From: a virus
DNA: 26,277 nucleotides
Strand: one strand, 5' to 3'
Virus record (IMG/VR): IMGVR_UViG_3300014050_000118
Location: 1 to 26,277 of that record
The notes below the pieces were generated by a model that was given only the letters and a program-made list of their open reading frames with translations, was not told the origin of the DNA and did not search any database. A program made the translations under genes and the position numbers. Position 1 is the first letter of the stretch. Each line of letters opens with the position of its first letter. Positions 4,342 to 19,223 of this stretch are shown here, piece after piece.

Positions 4342-5013
4342 ATGACCAATGAACTAGTATCAAGCGTATATACATTTGTCTGCGACCCAGATGAATGTGA
4401 TTGTTTAATTCAAGTAACATCATCAGATGGATTTGGATTCCCATCTGGTGTGGTAGAACTCACATGCCCATGTGGTCGTAAAACCACATTAGTGTCAGTG
4501 GAACATGCTAGAATACCATCAACAACCCAAACGAAAGGAAATACAATGGACGGAATGACAACAGAGAATCTGCCACTATCGGATTCAGAGAAGTATAACC
4601 CTGATTTGTTAGTTACATATAAGGTGCTGAATGGTTATTCAGATGCTACATATGCTACAGATAAGGTTCGTAATATTGAGTGGGACCTTCACAATTCCCG
4701 CACAAATTCTAAGGCAGTCTCATCTTTACAGAATAAGATTGGTTTAGTTAAAGATATTATTTCAGAAGCATATGCTGATTCAGAAGACCAAGAAACTTTG
4801 CAAGCAATTGCAGAAGCACTTGAGATTGAATTAGTTAAAGAAATTGAATGGTCTGCATCTATTGAGGTTAGCGGAGTTATTTCAGTTAACTTACTTGAAG
4901 ATACACACTTTGATTTACAGTATGAGATTGAGGATGCTATTTATGCCGATTCTCATAACGGCAATATTCAAGTTAATGACCAAGAAATCTGTAATGTTAG
5001 AGAGAACTGCTAA
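4342..5013 (+). CDS. Zn-ribbon fusion protein with internal promoter and start
   Basis: The full frame is 223 aa. Residues 1-60 hold Cys at 14, 19, 21, 42 and 44 (DECDC, CPCGRK), like a small zinc ribbon. Residues 69-223 are acidic, helical and strand-mixed with no Cys until near the end. The long form would come from the leaderless promoter P8. Met69 (4546) has its own TGTCAG-type promoter (4493-4514) and ACGAAAGGA site, so a 155-aa short form is likely too. It may be two fused genes or one gene with two products. Function unknown. The stop overlaps the next ATG (TAATG). Confidence 0.7.
   Translation: MTNELVSSVYTFVCDPDECDCLIQVTSSDGFGFPSGVVELTCPCGRKTTLVSVEHARIPSTTQTKGNTMDGMTTENLPLSDSEKYNPDLLVTYKVLNGYSDATYATDKVRNIEWDLHNSRTNSKAVSSLQNKIGLVKDIISEAYADSEDQETLQAIAEALEIELVKEIEWSASIEVSGVISVNLLEDTHFDLQYEIEDAIYADSHNGNIQVNDQEICNVRENC
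4493..4514 (+). promoter_or_regulatory. TGTCAG-type promoter P9 inside a gene
   Basis: TGTCAGTG (4493-4500), eight bases, TAGAAT (4509-4514), followed by ACGAAAGGAA (4531-4540) and ATG 4546, all inside the frame that begins at 4342. Confidence 0.65.
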
Positions 5014-9938: not shown

Positions 9939-10083
9939 TTTCTTTCTTCTCCCAATATGGTATGCCATTGTCATCAAAGTCTGATCCAATTCTTCTTAAT
10001 ACTTCCTGTAGTTGAGGGTTAGATTCAATTCCTCTTATTACAGTTTCTAGATCAAATTCCCGATCAAATTTTTTAGAATTCAT
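9931..10083 (-). CDS. acidic 50-aa protein
   Basis: ATG 10081-10083 after GGAAGAGAGAAGC. It begins MNSKKFDREFDLETVIRGIE and ends YWEKKENE. A GTG 36 bases upstream (10117-10119) would add 12 basic residues and is an alternative. Helical, soluble, not recognised. Confidence 0.55.
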   Translation of the reverse strand: MNSKKFDREFDLETVIRGIESNPQLQEVLRRIGSDFDDNGIPYWEKKENE

Positions 10084-10128
10084 ATGCTTCTCTCTTCCCG
10101 CCGCACTTTTTCGCTTCACTAATTGCGA

Positions 10129-10341
10129 TCAATTTTCGTCTCTTCTCCAGTGTAAAAATGACTTGATGTAGACAACGGTGTATGCAACAGCGGCAAATAT
10201 AAATCCGTATTGACCAGTGGTCACTGCGTAGATAATCCACAAGCATTCGTTGAATATGAGCCATAACCATGCCCATTTCTTTTTACGACCTACAAAGTAA
10301 ATGCCTGCTACGCCTATGACGGCTAAAATCCATGACCACAT
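10129..10341 (-). CDS. small PnuC-like membrane protein, 70 aa
   Basis: Three membrane segments: residues 2-17 (SWILAVIGVAGIYFVG), 22-39 and 44-60, ending with a basic tail (HWRRDEN). The pattern, with Trp-rich turns and YGFI between segments 2 and 3, resembles one half of PnuC-type vitamin transporters; short proteins of this kind are frequent in phages. Transport activity is not shown. It lies in a cluster of small membrane proteins. Confidence 0.65.
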   Translation of the reverse strand: MWSWILAVIGVAGIYFVGRKKKWAWLWLIFNECLWIIYAVTTGQYGFIFAAVAYTVVYIKSFLHWRRDEN

Positions 10342-10344
10342 TGT

Positions 10345-10473
10345 TTATTCGCCCCTAGCAATCTTGGCTGCTAGTATCTGCATACCCAGCGCATTTGTTA
10401 CTGAGCTTTGGATTTCAATGGCTTCTATAGCCCTAGCAATTTCTTCTCTAAGCATCATTTCATCTAGACTCAT
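10345..10473 (-). CDS. 42-aa helical protein
   Basis: ATG 10471-10473, TAA 10345-10347, overlapping the upstream gene by 14 nt. It begins MSLDEMMLREEIARAIEAIE and continues as one long amphipathic helix with Ala/Ile spacing. AAGAGAGGCTAAAGACA lies upstream. Function unknown. Confidence 0.55.
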   Translation of the reverse strand: MSLDEMMLREEIARAIEAIEIQSSVTNALGMQILAAKIARGE

Positions 10474-10738
10474 TGTCTTTAGCCTCTCTTAACCACTGAT
10501 CTTCCCATAATCCCATGAGAGATTTGTTTCCAATATCATCAAAGTAATACCGATTCTTTTCTGGGTTATAGTTCCAGCCATACCATGTATCGCCTTCAGC
10601 CCAAGTAAGATTAGTTGGTCCTTCTTCTTTATATTCCTTTATGCGTTCAGCTAATTCATCATACATATGAACCTCATCAAACATTGCTTCTCTTAGTGGG
10701 GTCCACCAAAAGATACGATTAACCAACCATTCAATCAT
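10460..10738 (-). CDS. hypothetical phage protein, 92 aa
   Basis: It begins MIEWLVNRIFWWTPLREAMF; the N-terminus is hydrophobic/aromatic and may touch the membrane. The centre has TWAEGDTWYGWNYNPEKNRY, rich in Trp and Tyr. Start coupled to the upstream gene by ATGA. Not recognised. Confidence 0.65.
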   Translation of the reverse strand: MIEWLVNRIFWWTPLREAMFDEVHMYDELAERIKEYKEEGPTNLTWAEGDTWYGWNYNPEKNRYYFDDIGNKSLMGLWEDQWLREAKDNESR

Positions 10739-10872
10739 GCTCCCAGATACTCCATAACGGCATCACAATTAAAAATACAGGAAACAGAATCTCTTCTAGG
10801 GACATTCTTGTCAGTCTCAATAGTCAAAAGAGAGCGGCATTCTGTGCACTTATATATATATTTGTTTTTCAA
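10735..10872 (-). CDS. 45-aa zinc-ribbon-like protein, TTG start
   Basis: TTG 10870-10872 overlaps the previous TGA (TTGA) and has AGGAGG six bases upstream. The sequence KYIYKCTECRSLLTIETD is followed by SVSCIFNCDAVMEYLGA: two Cys pairs (CxxC, CxxxC) about 24 residues apart, a rubredoxin/zinc-ribbon layout. The stop overlaps the next ATG (ATGA). Function unknown. Confidence 0.6.
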   Translation of the reverse strand: MKNKYIYKCTECRSLLTIETDKNVPRRDSVSCIFNCDAVMEYLGA

Positions 10873-11048
10873 CTCTGCCTCCTAAATGGCACTGATATTA
10901 GATTAATTATTAATGATACAGCTAATGTATGACTAAATGATAATGGATAGAATATACCAACCAATAACATCAAGATCCATACGCCAATTAGCCATGACGA
11001 TACAGCCAATAATACGGCGCTAAATGCTATAGATTTCTTTGTTATCAT
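10869..11048 (-). CDS. 59-aa two-segment membrane protein
   Basis: ATG 11046-11048, TGA 10869-10871. Two hydrophobic stretches (residues 8-33 and 40-53) separated by FYPLSFSH, with a basic tail (FRRQS). It starts just after the GroES stop (1-bp gap). Unknown role. Confidence 0.55.
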   Translation of the reverse strand: MITKKSIAFSAVLLAVSSWLIGVWILMLLVGIFYPLSFSHTLAVSLIINLISVPFRRQS

Positions 11049-13057: not shown

Positions 13058-14281
13058 TTACTTAACTAAAGTAACCTTAGCCTTTGGATTCTTTGCATTC
13101 CACTTCTTAGCAAGATCGTTGAACGCCTTCTTAATTGCAGCAAGAGCAGCAGCATTGTCTGCCTTTAGCTTAACAATTTCTGTATCCTTAGTAAGAACTA
13201 CTGCATCAGCAGCAGCCTTAGCAGCGAGAGCAGCCTTATCAGCTGCGTCCTTAGCAACGAGAGCAGCCTTATCAGCGGCATCCTTAGCATCGGCAAGAGC
13301 CTTTACTGAAGCAGCCTTCTCTGCTGCTAGCGCAGCATCTGAAGCAGTCTTAGCAGCAACTGCATCAGCAGCAGCCTTTAGAACTGCAGCATCTGAAACA
13401 GCCTTAGCAGCAAGAGCGGCATCCTTAGCAGCCTTTTCTGCAGCAAGTTCTGTGACTAGATCACGAACTGCAATTTCTGCAAATGGTGCGAGTGTGCGAG
13501 CAGTTAAACCTACTACGTCTGCAGAAGCAGCATCAGAAGATGTTGTTGGTGCAAATGTGATAAGTGTTCGTGAGCCAGTTGCTGGAAGAGTTGCCTTAAA
13601 GGTCGCTGTTCCAAAATCTGAAAGAGTAGCACCAGTTGTTACTGTTGCAGTATCCATTACTGCTGTAGCAGCAAATACTGTTGCAGTGATAGACTTACCA
13701 GAAACTTTGTTTCCAAATGCGTCTGTCGCTGTAACTGTAATATCTTGCTTTGTTCCAGCAGCGCCTGTTGCAGGTGCAGATACTGTTAAATTATTGATTA
13801 GACCAGCAGTTCCCTGAACATAATATGTCAGTGTAACTGGGCCATTTGTGATTACAACTGTTCCAATTGCTGTTGTCTTTGTGTAGACGTAGAATGTCGC
13901 AGTTGTTCCTGTTCCAGTTGCAATTGTCAAAGATGATGATCCTGATGTTGCTCCTACTGGCGCAGCTGTTGAGTGTAGTGCAGACACGATTGTTGCATTA
14001 GTTGAAGTTGCTGTTACATTTGTTCCAGCAACAACAGTTGCAACTAACTGAACAACGTCAGTATTGTCAATAGCATTGTCTGCAGGCACTGGACGTGCAA
14101 TCGCAGTATTTAATGCAGTTCCAGCAGTTGCTGGAGTATCGAATCCTGCACCGCCAGTCTTTGCCGCATTCCATGTAGATGCCACAACTGACATGGTGTT
14201 AGCACTTGCAGGTGTTGCTACCATTGTGCCCAAAGTCATGGCTGCAACCACGGCTAGAGCGATTTTTTTAAATGAGTTCAT
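13058..14281 (-). CDS. secreted surface/S-layer-like protein, 407 aa
   Basis: Signal peptide at residues 1-27 (FKKIALAVVAAMTLGTMVAT then PASA). Residues about 30-160 are Thr/Ala/Val-rich strands, and about 160-265 form an Ig-like (Big/invasin-like) domain with TVTATDAFGNKVSG. Residues about 277-388 are a long Ala/Lys/Asp coiled coil with repeated AADKAAL-type units. It ends NPKAKVTLVK. The gene is visibly richer in G+C and in GCA/GCC codons than its neighbours. The architecture matches surface proteins expected of acI actinobacteria, so capture from the host is plausible. AAGGAGAATAAATT precedes ATG. Confidence 0.72.
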   Translation of the reverse strand: MNSFKKIALAVVAAMTLGTMVATPASANTMSVVASTWNAAKTGGAGFDTPATAGTALNTAIARPVPADNAIDNTDVVQLVATVVAGTNVTATSTNATIVSALHSTAAPVGATSGSSSLTIATGTGTTATFYVYTKTTAIGTVVITNGPVTLTYYVQGTAGLINNLTVSAPATGAAGTKQDITVTATDAFGNKVSGKSITATVFAATAVMDTATVTTGATLSDFGTATFKATLPATGSRTLITFAPTTSSDAASADVVGLTARTLAPFAEIAVRDLVTELAAEKAAKDAALAAKAVSDAAVLKAAADAVAAKTASDAALAAEKAASVKALADAKDAADKAALVAKDAADKAALAAKAAADAVVLTKDTEIVKLKADNAAALAAIKKAFNDLAKKWNAKNPKAKVTLVK

Positions 14282-14328: not shown

Positions 14329-14550
14329 TTAGTTTGTATAACTATTTCTCCATTGTGAGGGAGTATGATTTTCCTCAATCTGTTCTTTCATTTCCTCATC
14401 TTCATACATTCGAACAATGTGTAAACATTGATCTTCTTCGTCATACTCTGAAGATGATAACGGTAGTCCGTCATGCGTGTAACATACAGGTGGGCCGCAC
14501 CAACCCTTTTCTATCCCGTAAGCCATCCATTCGTCGAATGTTAGATCCAT
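14329..14550 (-). CDS. acidic phage protein, 73 aa
   Basis: It begins MDLTFDEWMAYGIEKGWCGP, with CYTHDGLP and QCLHIVRMYED. The THDGLP and EWMAYG motifs occur in many small actinophage proteins without known role. Overlaps the thioredoxin gene stop by 10 nt. Not recognised. Confidence 0.65.
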   Translation of the reverse strand: MDLTFDEWMAYGIEKGWCGPPVCYTHDGLPLSSSEYDEEDQCLHIVRMYEDEEMKEQIEENHTPSQWRNSYTN

Positions 14551-14843
14551 TCAGACAATTCCTGTAATATCTTGTGCTTTGGCATTGCCCCGATTATTTT
14601 ATGGACTGGCTGACCATCCTTAAATAATACCATAGTTGGGATTGAAGATACCTTATATTCCATAGTTTTCTCTGGATTCTCGTCAACATTTAACTTACCG
14701 ACTGGTAAATTGAACTGATTTTCTATCTCATCAAGGATTGGGGACATCTTTTTACAAGGTCCACACCATTCAGCCCAAAAATCAATCAATATAAGGTTAT
14801 TGCTAGATAGGGTATCTTCAAACGTTTTATCGGTTACTATCAT
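14541..14843 (-). CDS. trxA: thioredoxin, 100 aa
   Basis: Thioredoxin active site WCGPC (Cys27, Cys30) after FWAE, a cis-proline in SIPT (Pro69), and the GAMPKHKI end. Length is that of a single thioredoxin domain with no signal peptide, so cytosolic. It would reduce disulfides, for example for ribonucleotide reductase or a DNA polymerase partner. The ATG 14841-14843 is chosen for GGAGG six bases upstream and ATGA overlap with the gene before; a longer frame to 14891 lacks support. Confidence 0.92.
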   Translation of the reverse strand: MIVTDKTFEDTLSSNNLILIDFWAEWCGPCKKMSPILDEIENQFNLPVGKLNVDENPEKTMEYKVSSIPTMVLFKDGQPVHKIIGAMPKHKILQELSEWI

Positions 14844-15310
14844 TGTGCCTCCGCATGTGTTGGCCAATAATAACTGCAAGCTTCGCAACAAGTATAGCCG
14901 AGTTCACGATAATCAGAATACTCATTATAAAAATAATAAGACTCTGGATCTTTTTCAAACAGCCTGCCTTTATGTGTGTAATGAAGTTTATCTTCACCCA
15001 ACCACCAAGGTTTTTCTGACTCTAGCATCAAGAAATGCTCTTGATAAATATCGTCAAACGTCTGCCTTGTGGTATTTTTATAGCCACGCATAATGATCTC
15101 TTTAATGATTGCTTCATTGTATGTGAATAGCCAATCTTCATGACCGTTCCACATTTTTACTGCTGGATGATTCTTCCATGCACCTGAACTATAAAGTCCA
15201 GCTAATGATTTGAGAACCTGTAAGTTCTCAACACTTTGTTTAATTAAACGCTTTCGATCTAAATGCTTTGCTGTTTCTGCAAAGTCCGCCTCTGGTAAAA
15301 ATGTTTGCAT
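14840..15310 (-). CDS. pyrimidine-dimer-glycosylase-like DNA repair protein, 156 aa
   Basis: It begins MQTFLPEADFAETAKHLDRK, then KQSVENLQVLKSL and WKNHPAVKMWNGHEDWL (residues about 45-61). This pattern (LDxxRLxKQ, NHPAVxMW) is that of the family often annotated as pyrimidine dimer DNA glycosylase in phages, which would cut UV-damaged DNA. It is not close to T4 DenV, so the name is tentative. The C-terminus adds CCEACSYYWP. Start: TAGAAT ends 7 bases before ATG 15310 (leaderless). A start at ATG 15319 (MGIMQTF) is the alternative. Confidence 0.6.
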   Translation of the reverse strand: MQTFLPEADFAETAKHLDRKRLIKQSVENLQVLKSLAGLYSSGAWKNHPAVKMWNGHEDWLFTYNEAIIKEIIMRGYKNTTRQTFDDIYQEHFLMLESEKPWWLGEDKLHYTHKGRLFEKDPESYYFYNEYSDYRELGYTCCEACSYYWPTHAEAQ

Positions 15311-15362: not shown

Positions 15363-15572
15363 TTATTTATCTTTTAATTCATCTGCTGCTGCGTTAAATC
15401 TATTCATAAAGTTTTGAACTACAAAGAACGTAGTTTCTTGAGCATTTGATGCCATAGCACGAAAAGCAACTTCATTCTTTTCTTCTTCTGGCATGGCTGC
15501 TGTCCACTTAGTATATAGATCTGTTGCAACATCCTCTATGATGCCTTCAAGGACTGTCTGTTGGTCAGCCAT
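15363..15572 (-). CDS. helical phage protein, 69 aa
   Basis: It begins MADQQTVLEGIIEDVATDLY and is helical with Ala/Glu/Asn, no Cys or membrane part. It overlaps the protease gene end by 8 nt and is closed by the terminator at 15333. Unknown role. Confidence 0.6.
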   Translation of the reverse strand: MADQQTVLEGIIEDVATDLYTKWTAAMPEEEKNEVAFRAMASNAQETTFFVVQNFMNRFNAAADELKDK

Positions 15573-16485
15573 TTATAACACTACCAATCGACAGGATCTT
15601 TCCCTTTGTGCTACGACTAATAACAGGGGTTGATTTTGTATTAAGCAGAGAAAGAACTTGATCCTTAGTATAAGATGGATACTTTGACTTTAAGTAAAGG
15701 TATACAGATGCTGCTACCTGTGTAGAAACAGATGTTCCTGATGCGTTTACCTGTAGTCCTCCTGGGTTAAATGCTTTAATATCTCCAAGAGCAAAGAAAT
15801 CTGTAAGCTTTGCGTCATAGTTTGTATAAATTGCTGCTCCATCTCCATATGCTGATGCTGATATTGCAATAGATTCTGGGATACATGCTGGCCATGAGAT
15901 ACGCTTTGAGTCTCTTAAATTACCTGCTGGCAAAAATACTGGTATACCAGCAATAGATAAATTATTAATTGCTTTCTCTGTAAGAGGTGTAGATGGACAA
16001 TAATTAGTTCCAGACCCACCTAAATTATGATGAGACTGAGACATAGATACTGCTTGAATATTGAACCTATCCTTGTTAAACATAACCCAAGTTAAAGCAT
16101 TAACAAAAGTTGACTCATTAATAATTTGTCGTGAGCCATTTGCGGTTGCTCCAACTACACGAATAAAAACAATCTTTAGGTTTGGGTTTGTCATTAAAGC
16201 AGTTGATGCCATCTGTGTTCCATGTTCAAAGCCTTCTTGCAGCATAAACTTTGCTGGCATTACTACAGATCCTGGGCCCTCTTGGTATGGCTTTCCATTT
16301 GGACATGTTGGCCAATCTAAAAGACATACTTCAAAAACAATCTTATCTTTAAAGATAGGAAGGCTTGTATCTAATGATGTATCTATAATTGCTAATGTGG
16401 CAGGCTTTGTTTCTTCCGCCGCTGATGCTGTTACTGGCAAAACCAGTGTGAAGGCTACTAGAGCCGTGATCAATTTGTTTTTCAT
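15565..16485 (-). CDS. secreted subtilisin-like serine protease (S8), 306 aa
   Basis: Signal peptide (KLITALVAFTLVLPVTASA, residues 4-22), then a subtilase core with the complete catalytic set: Asp35 in AIIDTS, His88 in EHGT, oxyanion Asn189 in PAGN and Ser252 in GTSVS. It has no propeptide domain and no cell-wall anchor; with 306 residues it is a small subtilase. Secretion means it would act outside the membrane, perhaps on host surface proteins during lysis or infection. The promoter (TTGACG-17-TAGAAT, 16493-16521) ends seven bases before the ATG. Confidence 0.85.
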   Translation of the reverse strand: MKNKLITALVAFTLVLPVTASAAEETKPATLAIIDTSLDTSLPIFKDKIVFEVCLLDWPTCPNGKPYQEGPGSVVMPAKFMLQEGFEHGTQMASTALMTNPNLKIVFIRVVGATANGSRQIINESTFVNALTWVMFNKDRFNIQAVSMSQSHHNLGGSGTNYCPSTPLTEKAINNLSIAGIPVFLPAGNLRDSKRISWPACIPESIAISASAYGDGAAIYTNYDAKLTDFFALGDIKAFNPGGLQVNASGTSVSTQVAASVYLYLKSKYPSYTKDQVLSLLNTKSTPVISRSTKGKILSIGSVING

Positions 16486-16524: not shown

Positions 16525-16656
16525 CTACTTGGTTTTTTTATCTTGATACCATTTGCCAGAGTCTAATGAATTCTTAAATGCTTTATTCTCTAACAACACT
16601 TTGAATAAAAAATCTATTCTTTTCTCTAAAATCTGAATTTTCTTTTTGTTTCTCAA
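16525..16656 (-). CDS. basic 43-aa protein, TTG start
   Basis: TTG 16654-16656 overlaps the previous TGA (TTGA), with AGAAGG upstream. Stop TAG 16525-16527. It begins (M)RNKKKIQILEKRIDFLFKVL and ends KWYQDKKTK: a basic helix. The unusual TTGA junction also occurs at 10870. Function unknown; small size keeps confidence modest. Confidence 0.45.
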   Translation of the reverse strand: MRNKKKIQILEKRIDFLFKVLLENKAFKNSLDSGKWYQDKKTK

Positions 16657-16964
16657 TTTTCCATACCTTCTCTATCAACTGGAGTTGGGGCTGTTGCTAT
16701 ATTCCCACACTCTACGCATTGCATATCTAAGAAATAAGTTGCAATCTCATAATTATCAAACATGGCCTTGACATACCAAACTTTTGATCCGCATACGCAA
16801 GAATGAGTTGGTGTTCCACGAAGATCTATGGCAGAAAAATCATCCTGATCACCAAGATCCTGTTTATCAAATACCAAAATCTGATACTTACCAAACAGAT
16901 TATACATAAAGCTAATGCCTATTAGACTTAATAGACTTCCAGATATACGAGTAATCCATTTCAT
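16653..16964 (-). CDS. membrane-anchored zinc-ribbon protein, 103 aa, leaderless
   Basis: One membrane segment (residues 8-23, SGSLLSLIGISFMYNL) followed by a soluble domain with SCVCGS and MQCVECGN, two Cys pairs about 30 residues apart, a zinc ribbon. The promoter TTTACA-17-TATAAT (16971-16999) ends six bases before ATG 16964, so translation is probably leaderless. Function unknown. Confidence 0.65.
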   Translation of the reverse strand: MKWITRISGSLLSLIGISFMYNLFGKYQILVFDKQDLGDQDDFSAIDLRGTPTHSCVCGSKVWYVKAMFDNYEIATYFLDMQCVECGNIATAPTPVDREGMEN

Positions 16965-16970
16965 AGTTCA

Positions 16971-16999
16971 ATTATACTCTAAACTTGAATGTATGTAAA
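16971..16999 (-). promoter_or_regulatory. strong leaderless promoter of 16964 gene
   Basis: Minus strand TTTACA (16994-16999), 17 bp, TATAAT (16971-16976), then six bases to ATG. Overlaps the 3' end of the proteasome-like gene. Confidence 0.72.
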
Positions 17000-17533
17000 G
17001 GGTGGAGATACGCTCATTGAAAATTCTGATGCTGCTTCTAAGGCAAGCTTTATACGCATCTTTGGATTCTTTTGATTCTTTGTAGCATGTAGGGCTCCTA
17101 GCGCAAACATACCGCCTGATCCTTCCGCCATATAATTAACTACATTTTCTCCAACATGGAAGTCTTCATCTATAGTAAAAATTCTACCGCATACTCCTAC
17201 TATAAAGATTCCGCCCTCATCTTCTTGTCCAGATACTTGGCTTCCAAATCCACCAGCCCTAAATGCATCTTTAACTGAATCAATAAACTTAGTTCTCATA
17301 AATTTATCTAATCCTGAATTAGTTTTTGTTGGTGTATATTTTGGCGGAATCCATGAGTATTGAAGTATTTGTCCCATACGAAATGAATCTGTAAATGCAA
17401 TTCCGTATTGACCAACCTTAAAACACTTAGGCTCTTTTCGTGCCATAATCCATCCAGATTTTTCATCTGAGGCAGCATGATCGGAACCAATATAAACAGT
17501 TCCATTTTGGGCAATAGCTACTATACATGTCAT
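16979..17533 (-). CDS. proteasome-beta/HslV-like Ntn hydrolase, 184 aa
   Basis: It begins MTCIVAIAQNGTVYIGSDHA. Removal of Met would expose Thr1, the nucleophile of proteasome beta/HslV enzymes; Asp17 and Lys near 32-33 also fall at the conserved spacing. Near the end AEGSGGMFALGALHA matches the GSG(S)xFAxGxL signature, then RIKLALEAASEF. Length is close to HslV (about 175). No HslU/ATPase lies near, so partners would be host-derived or absent. TATACT (17540-17545) ends six bases before ATG, so it is leaderless and no leader needs trimming. Confidence 0.75.
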   Translation of the reverse strand: MTCIVAIAQNGTVYIGSDHAASDEKSGWIMARKEPKCFKVGQYGIAFTDSFRMGQILQYSWIPPKYTPTKTNSGLDKFMRTKFIDSVKDAFRAGGFGSQVSGQEDEGGIFIVGVCGRIFTIDEDFHVGENVVNYMAEGSGGMFALGALHATKNQKNPKMRIKLALEAASEFSMSVSPPFTYIQV

Positions 17534-17539
17534 ACTATT

Positions 17540-17545
17540 AGTATA
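17540..17545 (-). promoter_or_regulatory. -10 element, leaderless start of Ntn hydrolase
   Basis: TATACT on the minus strand, six bases before ATG. No clear -35 was found at 17 bp. Confidence 0.55.
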
Positions 17546-17565
17546 CTATTTTTAAATTCGATGGG

Positions 17566-17874
17566 CTAGTCTTCGTGTGTGTGGAAATCAACATCAATTA
17601 ATGATATCTTAATTAAAGTTTCTTCAAGCTCAGCCTTGACTACAATTAATTCTTGGATGGCAGAATAATATTTGTCTTTCCATTCAGTCAAATCACGCTC
17701 AACCTGATATAGCTGAATTTTTAGATCTTTTAATTCTAACTTTAAATGGTCATGCTCACGCTCTGCCTGTCTGGTTTTTTCCCGCTTAGATTCTTTTATT
17801 CCAGAAATTATAGCAGTCCCCATACCGCTCAAAATAGCGGCAGAAATAGCAATAGAAACTGATAATAAATCCAT
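17566..17874 (-). CDS. membrane-anchored coiled-coil protein, 102 aa
   Basis: A hydrophobic N-terminus (residues 1-25, MDLLSVSIAISAAILSGMGT...) is followed by a basic patch and a long charged coiled coil (residues 27-90, REKTRQAEREHDHLKLELKD) ending DVDFHTHED. The layout resembles i-spanins/Rz-like or membrane tethers, but the position away from the lysis genes argues against that. A TATAAT lies nine bases before ATG. Unknown. Confidence 0.65.
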   Translation of the reverse strand: MDLLSVSIAISAAILSGMGTAIISGIKESKREKTRQAEREHDHLKLELKDLKIQLYQVERDLTEWKDKYYSAIQELIVVKAELEETLIKISLIDVDFHTHED

Positions 17875-17903
17875 TATAGATTAATTATACAGCAGTATTA
17901 AGC

Positions 17904-18140
17904 CTAAACTAAGAGTTCAGAAGCTGATATATCGTTACCAATATACCTCTTTTTTAAAACATGTTCTCTAACATGGTCTGGGCCATTTGATCTACCAGCC
18001 AAAATAATTACCCATCTAGGTTCTAATTTAGAAGATATACAAGTTTCGCACATCAACAAATTAATAGGCAGCAATGCTGACTTCTTAGCATTTAACTTAT
18101 GCTTACTTTTATTGCAGCAATAGCATAATATTTTTTCCAT
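17904..18140 (-). CDS. small zinc-binding protein, 78 aa
   Basis: It begins MEKILCYCCNKSKHKLNAKK with CYCC, and CETC follows about 25 residues later: a four-Cys zinc site as in Zn-ribbon or HNH-adjacent phage proteins, though no HNH residues are seen. The rest includes GRSNGPDHVREHV. Starts in a TAATG overlap with the gene before. Confidence 0.65.
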   Translation of the reverse strand: MEKILCYCCNKSKHKLNAKKSALLPINLLMCETCISSKLEPRWVIILAGRSNGPDHVREHVLKKRYIGNDISASELLV

Positions 18141-18337
18141 TAGTCTTCTTCCTCAATGTGATGAAACACGATCTCGTCTATAATAGCGAATTCGTCATTT
18201 TCTATTAACTCGTTATGCTCTACTTCGTCCTTAGTATATTTTACCACAGACATGAAGGCTCCCATTTGCTCAACAGTGCCATATACGCCTTCTTCGTGTA
18301 GATACACGATATTGATGACCTCATAAGATTCTTTCAC
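18140..18337 (-). CDS. acidic small protein, 65 aa, GTG start
   Basis: GTG 18335-18337 with GGAGG nine bases upstream, overlapping the gene before by 17 nt. It begins (M)KESYEVINIVYLHEEGVYG, then VVKYTKDEVEHNELIEND. Strand-rich N-terminus and acidic tail (HHIEEED). Small SH3-like or 'modulator' fold is possible; unknown. Confidence 0.6.
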   Translation of the reverse strand: MKESYEVINIVYLHEEGVYGTVEQMGAFMSVVKYTKDEVEHNELIENDEFAIIDEIVFHHIEEED

Positions 18338-18638
18338 TTGGTTTCCCCTCCAGCTCGCATCTTACTCCATATGATTCAATCATGCTTTTAATTTTCATAA
18401 CACGATCAATAGCTATTTCTTTTCTTGTTCCGTGAAACTGTAAAAAATTGTCTTCATATAGCCTAATTGCTAAGAACTCTGGATATTGTGCAATATCCAC
18501 TAGGAGGTCTGGTAAATCTTTAATTAATTCTTTAAACTTTATTGCCATCTCTTTTGTATAGAATACAGGCTTATTTGGCTCGCCTGTCCATTGATTAATT
18601 CCGTATTTAAAGTGATCCTTGTCTTTATTAATGAACAC
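18321..18638 (-). CDS. phage protein, 105 aa, GTG start
   Basis: GTG 18636-18638 with AAGGAG five bases upstream. It begins (M)FINKDKDHFKYGINQWTGEP and carries NKPVFYTKEMAIKFKELIKD. No motif recognised. Overlaps the WhiB stop by 11 nt, so probably co-expressed with it. Confidence 0.65.
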   Translation of the reverse strand: MFINKDKDHFKYGINQWTGEPNKPVFYTKEMAIKFKELIKDLPDLLVDIAQYPEFLAIRLYEDNFLQFHGTRKEIAIDRVMKIKSMIESYGVRCELEGKPSERIL

Positions 18639-18939
18639 CTTTACTCCTTAATCTTTTCCAAGTATCGGCAGTTTTATGCAAATTCTTGCTTTTATCAATA
18701 TCTCCAGAGCTTAAATATACACCGCCCCAAACACCATATTCGTCGTTTTCAACTCCAGATTCATGACACATCCTGACAACTGGACAACTTAAACATGCTT
18801 CATCAATATTTTTTGCTATGTTAGCGTCTGCCTCGTATTTATCGTAGAACAGATTTGTATCCATACCACGACAAACGGCTAAATGCCACCAATCAAAATC
18901 TTCTTTATCTATACCTAAATCATTTAAAATATTTGACAT
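18628..18939 (-). CDS. WhiB-family Fe-S transcription regulator, 103 aa
   Basis: Four Cys in the WhiB spacing: Cys23, Cys49, Cys52, Cys58 (CRGMD; CLSCPVVRMC), followed by the diagnostic GVWGG turn (residues 69-73) and a basic C-terminus (TWKRLRSKG). WhiB proteins bind a [4Fe-4S] cluster, attach to sigma-A and alter promoter choice; phage examples include TM4 WhiB, which blocks host WhiB2. The start is placed at MSNILNDLG (18939), where overlap with the gene before is least; an upstream MIKELGF start (18972) is possible. Confidence 0.9.
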   Translation of the reverse strand: MSNILNDLGIDKEDFDWWHLAVCRGMDTNLFYDKYEADANIAKNIDEACLSCPVVRMCHESGVENDEYGVWGGVYLSSGDIDKSKNLHKTADTWKRLRSKGVH

Positions 18940-19153
18940 ATTTTTTTGGAAGAACCCAAGTTCCTTTATCATTGACTGATATCTTATCAGCCACACCCCA
19001 AGCATTTTGCCTGAATACGCCTTTTGTATTTATAAATCCATTATAGTCTTTTGTCCAAAGTATCAGGTCATAACTTTCCCAATAAGCATCTTTAGTTATA
19101 GATTTAAATTTTTTTATAAAAAGCTCTACACCTAATTCATTTAAATGTAACAT
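18920..19153 (-). CDS. hypothetical phage protein, 77 aa
   Basis: ATG 19151-19153 with AAGGATAT upstream. It begins MLHLNELGVELFIKKFKSIT, then AYWESYDLILWTKDYNG. Mixed alpha/beta, two Trp-rich segments, no Cys. Overlaps the start of whiB. A TATAAT lies at 19191-19196. Function unknown. Confidence 0.65.
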   Translation of the reverse strand: MLHLNELGVELFIKKFKSITKDAYWESYDLILWTKDYNGFINTKGVFRQNAWGVADKISVNDKGTWVLPKKYVKYFK

Positions 19154-19223
19154 ATATCCTTAAATGACTAACCGCAGCATCCCATATATAATTATACATG
19201 AGTTGCTACGGCTATGTCAACAA

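Follow-up and report, generated by a model that had tools for sequence, protein, structure and literature searches.

A putative AAH-type threonine peptidase encoded by phages that carry whiB

Introduction

Why would a phage carry a gene for a hydrolase of the proteasome type? The question is raised by one open reading frame in a 26,277-nucleotide stretch of viral DNA (IMG/VR record IMGVR_UViG_3300014050_000118, hereafter the window), whose product a preliminary description had read as a proteasome-beta/HslV-like hydrolase. The protein family, its fold and its presence in other phages are already known. In the literature on phage HslV and proteasome proteins, only the work of Fuchs, Alva and Lupas (2021; PMC8665760) proved directly relevant, and we found no paper giving a function for any phage proteasome homologue. 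Those authors reported that the AAH homologues reach their highest abundance in Actinobacteria, but did not find any Actinobacteria-specific phage that encodes one. Here, we ask what the window protein is, which host its phage infects, and what the protein most probably does.

Results

Relatives of the window protease are encoded in at least 329 IMG/VR loci. Out of the 329 confirmed relatives, 80 orthologous loci with 81–98% identity were fetched for comparison. The median dN/dS across 30 equal-length orthologues is about 0.07, with near-saturated synonymous sites in many of the pairs. Given these orthologous loci and this low ratio, the protease is a real gene under purifying selection. At about 85% mean identity it is also among the most conserved genes of its neighborhood, a comparison that is biased because the loci were selected by the protease gene itself. 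At the DNA level, the region 16600–19200 has no relative in the annotated phage collection. The features of the locus are collected in Table 1.

Table 1. Features at and around the protease gene, in window coordinates.
Feature	Coordinates	Strand	Evidence or remark
Putative AAH-type proteasome homologue (Thr1 Ntn hydrolase), 184 aa	16979..17533	minus	ORF, PHROG match, tree, model
Protease ATG start; the codon after it is ACA, encoding the would-be catalytic Thr1	17531..17533	minus	
Conserved promoter element TAGTATACT, with TATACT at −12 to −7 from the ATG	17540..17548	minus	Would imply a leaderless transcript
Small coiled-coil protein with apparent N-terminal membrane segment, upstream	17566..17874	minus	Syntenic in 64/80 loci
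WhiB-family regulator	18628..19005	minus	PF02467, 1.2e-11
103-aa protein with no assigned function, downstream	16653..16964	minus	Syntenic in 77/80 loci
Subtilase with apparent signal peptide, next protease downstream	15565..16485	minus	PF00082, 4.3e-14; syntenic in 69/80 loci

The neighboring whiB gene bears on the host. It lies 1.1–2.6 kb upstream of the protease gene in all 80 relative loci, and PF02467 matches were found in each of the 16 relative contigs of 50–115 kb that made up our long set for the whiB and partner searches. Among 14 control genomes, only Corynebacterium matches. The whiB family is restricted to Actinobacteria and serves as an actinophage marker (PMC6802176; PMC10202952). 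Its presence in the window and in 16 of 16 long contigs therefore makes the host very likely an actinobacterium, in line with the preliminary description. The low-GC type of these whiB phages and the literature, rather than a sample record, lead us to infer a freshwater habitat.

Several other genes accompany the protease, and their order along the loci is stable. With the subtilase downstream of the AAH gene, the block encodes two proteases that are unrelated to each other. A protein resembling thioredoxin, with the motif WCGPC (14541–14891), recurs in 75 of 80 loci and an Hsp20 small heat-shock protein of the phage (24585–25004; PF00011, 7.6e-17) in 48, while an Ala/Lys-rich, secreted-looking protein of 407 residues without a family match (13058–14281) is found near the protease block in 35.

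The protease itself begins MTCIVAI, so that Thr directly follows Met and would occupy mature position 1 in a protein without a propeptide; all 81 orthologues examined begin MTCI. An Asp is located at mature position 17 (D18 counting Met), and the equivalent of Lys33 is mature Lys35 (K36), which falls on K33 of Rhodococcus PrcB in a profile alignment. The segment GSGGMFALGAL spans residues 138–148, its GSGG loop (138–141) corresponding to the Ser129 region. Residues M1, T2, D18, K36, G138 and G140 are invariant among 52 phage and cellular relatives. The proteasome-beta/HslV residue marks named in the preliminary description are thus present, and its proposal of an exposed, propeptide-free Thr1 is borne out by the adjacency of Thr to Met.

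Two further positions deserve mention. The position of Gly47 (counted on Thermoplasma beta) is Ala46 in the window protease and Ala in 80 of the 81 sequences of the actinophage clade, whereas cellular AAH proteins have Gly. The Asp166 position of this clade is apparently Phe. By profile alignment, BPH (the beta-proteobacterial proteasome homologue) also has Ala and Phe at these two positions, so Ala at Gly47 and Phe at Asp166 are by themselves no argument for an inactive enzyme. The pair may still count against the mechanism favored below.

Upstream of the start codon, about 54 of 56 distinct sequences have TATACT at −12 to −7, with a conserved AATTTATATTTAG stretch in front of it; in none of the 56 is there a Shine-Dalgarno match longer than 3 nt. 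With sigma-70-type promoter spacing, a −10 hexamer at −12 to −7 would have transcription begin at the A of the ATG. The promoter sequence in this way supports a leaderless protease mRNA, as had been suggested for this gene. Further window gene starts, at 4342, 11858 and 16964, have a TATAAT-like box at exactly −12 and lack a clear Shine-Dalgarno sequence; the last of these, with TATAAT, belongs to the downstream 103-aa gene. This suggests that more transcripts of the window phage may be leaderless, and since the layout of −10 box and ATG is the same, it would be a habit of the phage and not special to the protease gene.

To which family does the protein belong? Searched singly, it scored below the cut-off of Pfam PF00227 and yielded only chance matches in the PDB, to designed and cell-surface repeat proteins. 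A family profile search of the PDB, by comparison, picks up BPH, PrcB and HslV, and PHROG 1040 (‘peptidase HslV family’) matches the window protease over its whole length with an E-value of 3.7e-19.

Structure prediction with comparison to HslV and PrcB, the check set by the preliminary description, found the Ntn sandwich. The AlphaFold2 model, built with 52 related sequences (pLDDT 89.6, pTM 0.86), has the four-layer arrangement with an N-terminal nucleophile. Foldseek retrieved 1008 PDB chains at E ≤ 0.001; the top matches are all of proteasome type, led by BPH and HslV and followed by archaeal, mycobacterial and eukaryotic 20S subunits, 20S beta among the best. In VIA-align the model superimposes on BPH with a Z of 20.7 (168 residues, 2.4 Å); HslV reaches a Z of about 19 and M. 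tuberculosis PrcB one of about 18. Most of these alignments open with model residue 2 (Thr2) paired with the catalytic Thr at chain residue 1. Helices 141–150 and 157–171 are the counterparts of the pair that makes the ring-ring contact in 20S beta subunits, and the model shows no insertion between the two (rule from PMC8665760). A helix at 75–93 is present, and the model ends in a strand (179–183) after helix 157–171.

An IQ-TREE tree of 78 proteins, to be read with caution over long branches, groups the window protease with all cellular sequences and several phages (E3, MTATph1, OC, D'Alembert, T5-like, Vibrio and 121Q) in a 72-row clade with support of 100/99. The best cellular relatives, at 36–46% identity, are from Frankia and Streptomyces, followed by Rhizobiales and Azospirillum. 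AAH was named for just this distribution over Frankia, Streptomyces, rhizobia and Azospirillum (Fuchs 2021, PMC8665760). Clustering with alpha-proteobacterial and actinobacterial homologues, the Thr1/Asp17/Lys33 triad, the missing propeptide and a compact core free of insertions and of a C-terminal S12/H5 all agree with AAH. The window protease thus appears to belong to the AAH-type branch, a label drawn from taxonomic distribution and phylogeny.

Other identities fit poorly. As HslV, the protein scores 12.6 bits against a curated cut-off of 157.75, and the 16 long contigs hold no HslU (PF07724) match; as a 20S proteasome beta subunit (PrcB), it scores 16.5 bits against 191.9 and has no propeptide. 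PPH, the phage and host proteasome homologue, can be ruled out on length and helix content: it has about 140 residues and no helix H2, whereas the window protease has 184 residues and the 75–93 helix. Of the original proposal of a proteasome-beta/HslV-like hydrolase, the Ntn fold therefore stands, while the protein is neither HslV nor PrcB but an apparent member of the AAH branch with BPH as its closest fold.

Within the tree, the actinophage clade is monophyletic (100/100) and sits on its own long branch rather than among cellular actinobacterial AAH sequences; the long branch means that the function of the protease may have shifted. Capture of a host gene from a Frankia- or Streptomyces-type AAH finds no support in the tree. 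Few Actinomycetota carry AAH: of 396 genomes sampled, none but the seed Frankia genome gave a match at 1e-8.

The cellular AAH genes also showed features of their own. They appear concentrated in nitrogen-fixing lineages, nifH scoring above cut-off in 29 of 49 AAH genomes (a raw count), and on the Rhizobium tropici plasmid pRtrCIAT899b the AAH gene lies about 7 kb from nifHDK. Common descent or carriage on symbiosis plasmids could explain the association. Members of the Rhizobium tropici/lusitanum group have AAH as a pseudogene, interrupted by an in-frame stop after residue 38.

Discussion

The best-supported mechanism is that of an ATP-independent, self-compartmentalising, BPH-like threonine peptidase, whose assembly, activity and substrate we infer. 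Our reading of the locus as a whole, to which we assign a probability of roughly 0.6, is that phages of freshwater actinobacteria encode an AAH-branch threonine peptidase that forms a BPH/HslV-like ring, works without a dedicated ATPase and serves host takeover, not capsid maturation. The protease would be translated from a leaderless mRNA, whereupon deformylase and methionine aminopeptidase would expose Thr1, loss of the first amino acid sufficing for activation. Subunits would then assemble into a double ring resembling those of BPH and HslV, with a chamber that restricts access, and the ring could, inside the infected cell, cut peptides and unfolded polypeptide chains without an ATPase of its own; alternatively, it might enlist a chaperone or AAA+ protein of the host. 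Host takeover would be the likeliest use, either by clearing particular host or phage proteins or by recycling peptides.

No HslU/ClpX-type ATPase (PF07724) and no AAA match above cut-off (PF00004) was found in any of the 16 relative contigs of 50–115 kb, which extends to these long relatives the earlier observation that the window holds no ATPase partner. The long contigs may be incomplete, and an unfoldase might be encoded at a distance or supplied by the host. That the fold is kept while the long contigs offer no phage unfoldase is what speaks for a partnership with a host AAA+ unfoldase (Mpa/ARC or ClpX/ClpC) and directed degradation of chosen host proteins. We consider this unlikely, as Fuchs 2021 (PMC8665760) saw no AAA+ interactor that co-occurs with these families and we identified no docking motif in the window protease.

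Processing of virion proteins, another use that had been suggested, is disfavored for the capsid. All 10 relative contigs longer than 70 kb encode a separate S78 prohead protease, 47–61 kb from the protease gene, so capsid maturation is already served and a prohead role is argued against; a search for S77 prohead proteases gave no match, but neither did its control. Likewise, Microbacterium phage WaterT has a distant HslV-like protease alongside a separate annotated capsid maturation protease. Annotated phage homologues often lie instead within a few kb of genes for thymidylate synthase, DHFR, RNR, PhoH, MazG or a nucleotide kinase; these neighbors may hint at an early or middle role in host takeover. 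A virion maturation protease for prohead or tail proteins would fit a phage protease conserved across its lineage, whose half of the window also holds an endolysin and a weak tape-measure-like match, but on the evidence above we think it quite improbable.

The other suggested use, interference with host protein turnover, may apply. Interference with the host proteasome or another Ntn protease, by mixed assembly or by competition for activators, would call for no separate protease at all. The phage protein has the same fold, and a 20S beta subunit is encoded in 107 of 246 sampled Actinomycetota (about 43%). More than half of the sample thus lacks one, however, and the host is known only as a likely actinobacterium. 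Furthermore, purifying selection has kept all the catalytic residues, which a pure inhibitor would not need, and homologues are known from phages that infect E. coli, Salmonella and Vibrio, none of which has a 20S proteasome. We think this reading about as improbable as virion maturation. A specialised ligase or amidase is very improbable: the Ntn fold does support several chemistries, connectase being a proteasome-fold ligase (PMC8665760), but the model lacks connectase's signature element, the two-helix insertion between strands 3 and 4.

The preferred reading, a ring-forming peptidase of host takeover, can be taken further, though we hold the extension only as a doubtful conjecture: the lineage may bring in a protease generally absent from its hosts, which, by itself or bound to an AAA+ protein of the host, would act as a takeover degradation machine under its own leaderless promoter.

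The whiB phages described here carry AAH and fill the actinophage gap left by Fuchs 2021 (PMC8665760). With many such contigs at hand, the exchange of AAH with phages of Actinobacteria is now a testable question. Moreover, a short, propeptide-free and apparently leaderless gene would lend itself to simple studies of the role of phage proteasome homologues.

Compared with cellular AAH, the window protease has the same catalytic residues, missing propeptide and compact fold, and shares with it the one clade (100/99); it differs in being carried by whiB phages, in forming a clade of its own and in having Ala for Gly at the Gly47 position. Among phages, PHROG 1040 (Geobacillus phage E3, Moorella phage MTATph1, T5-like and Vibrio phages) is a close counterpart, and the E3 and Moorella phage proteins are about 42% identical to the window protease over full length. 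The listed PHROG 1040 phages infect Firmicutes, Bacteroidetes or Proteobacteria, in contrast to the actinobacterial host proposed here, and many of their genes lie near thymidylate synthase, DHFR, RNR or PhoH, whereas the window gene neighbors whiB, a subtilase and an endolysin.

The HslV-like genes of Microbacterium phages WaterT and Pumpernickel and of Actinomycetia phage DSL-LC01 share the actinophage host and the Thr1 Ntn signature. Their proteins, however, are only 24–27% identical to the window protease, fall outside the 72-row AAH clade and lack the FT[SD]SFRMG motif. In DSL-LC01, the distant HslV-like gene is followed immediately by whiB (locus 10001–10954); the window has its whiB about 1.1 kb upstream of the AAH gene. 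Finally, BPH (PDB 5OVS, 5OVT and 5OVU) offers the best solved fold and, like the window protease, has no propeptide and no known unfoldase, although it belongs to another sequence family, at about 20% identity.
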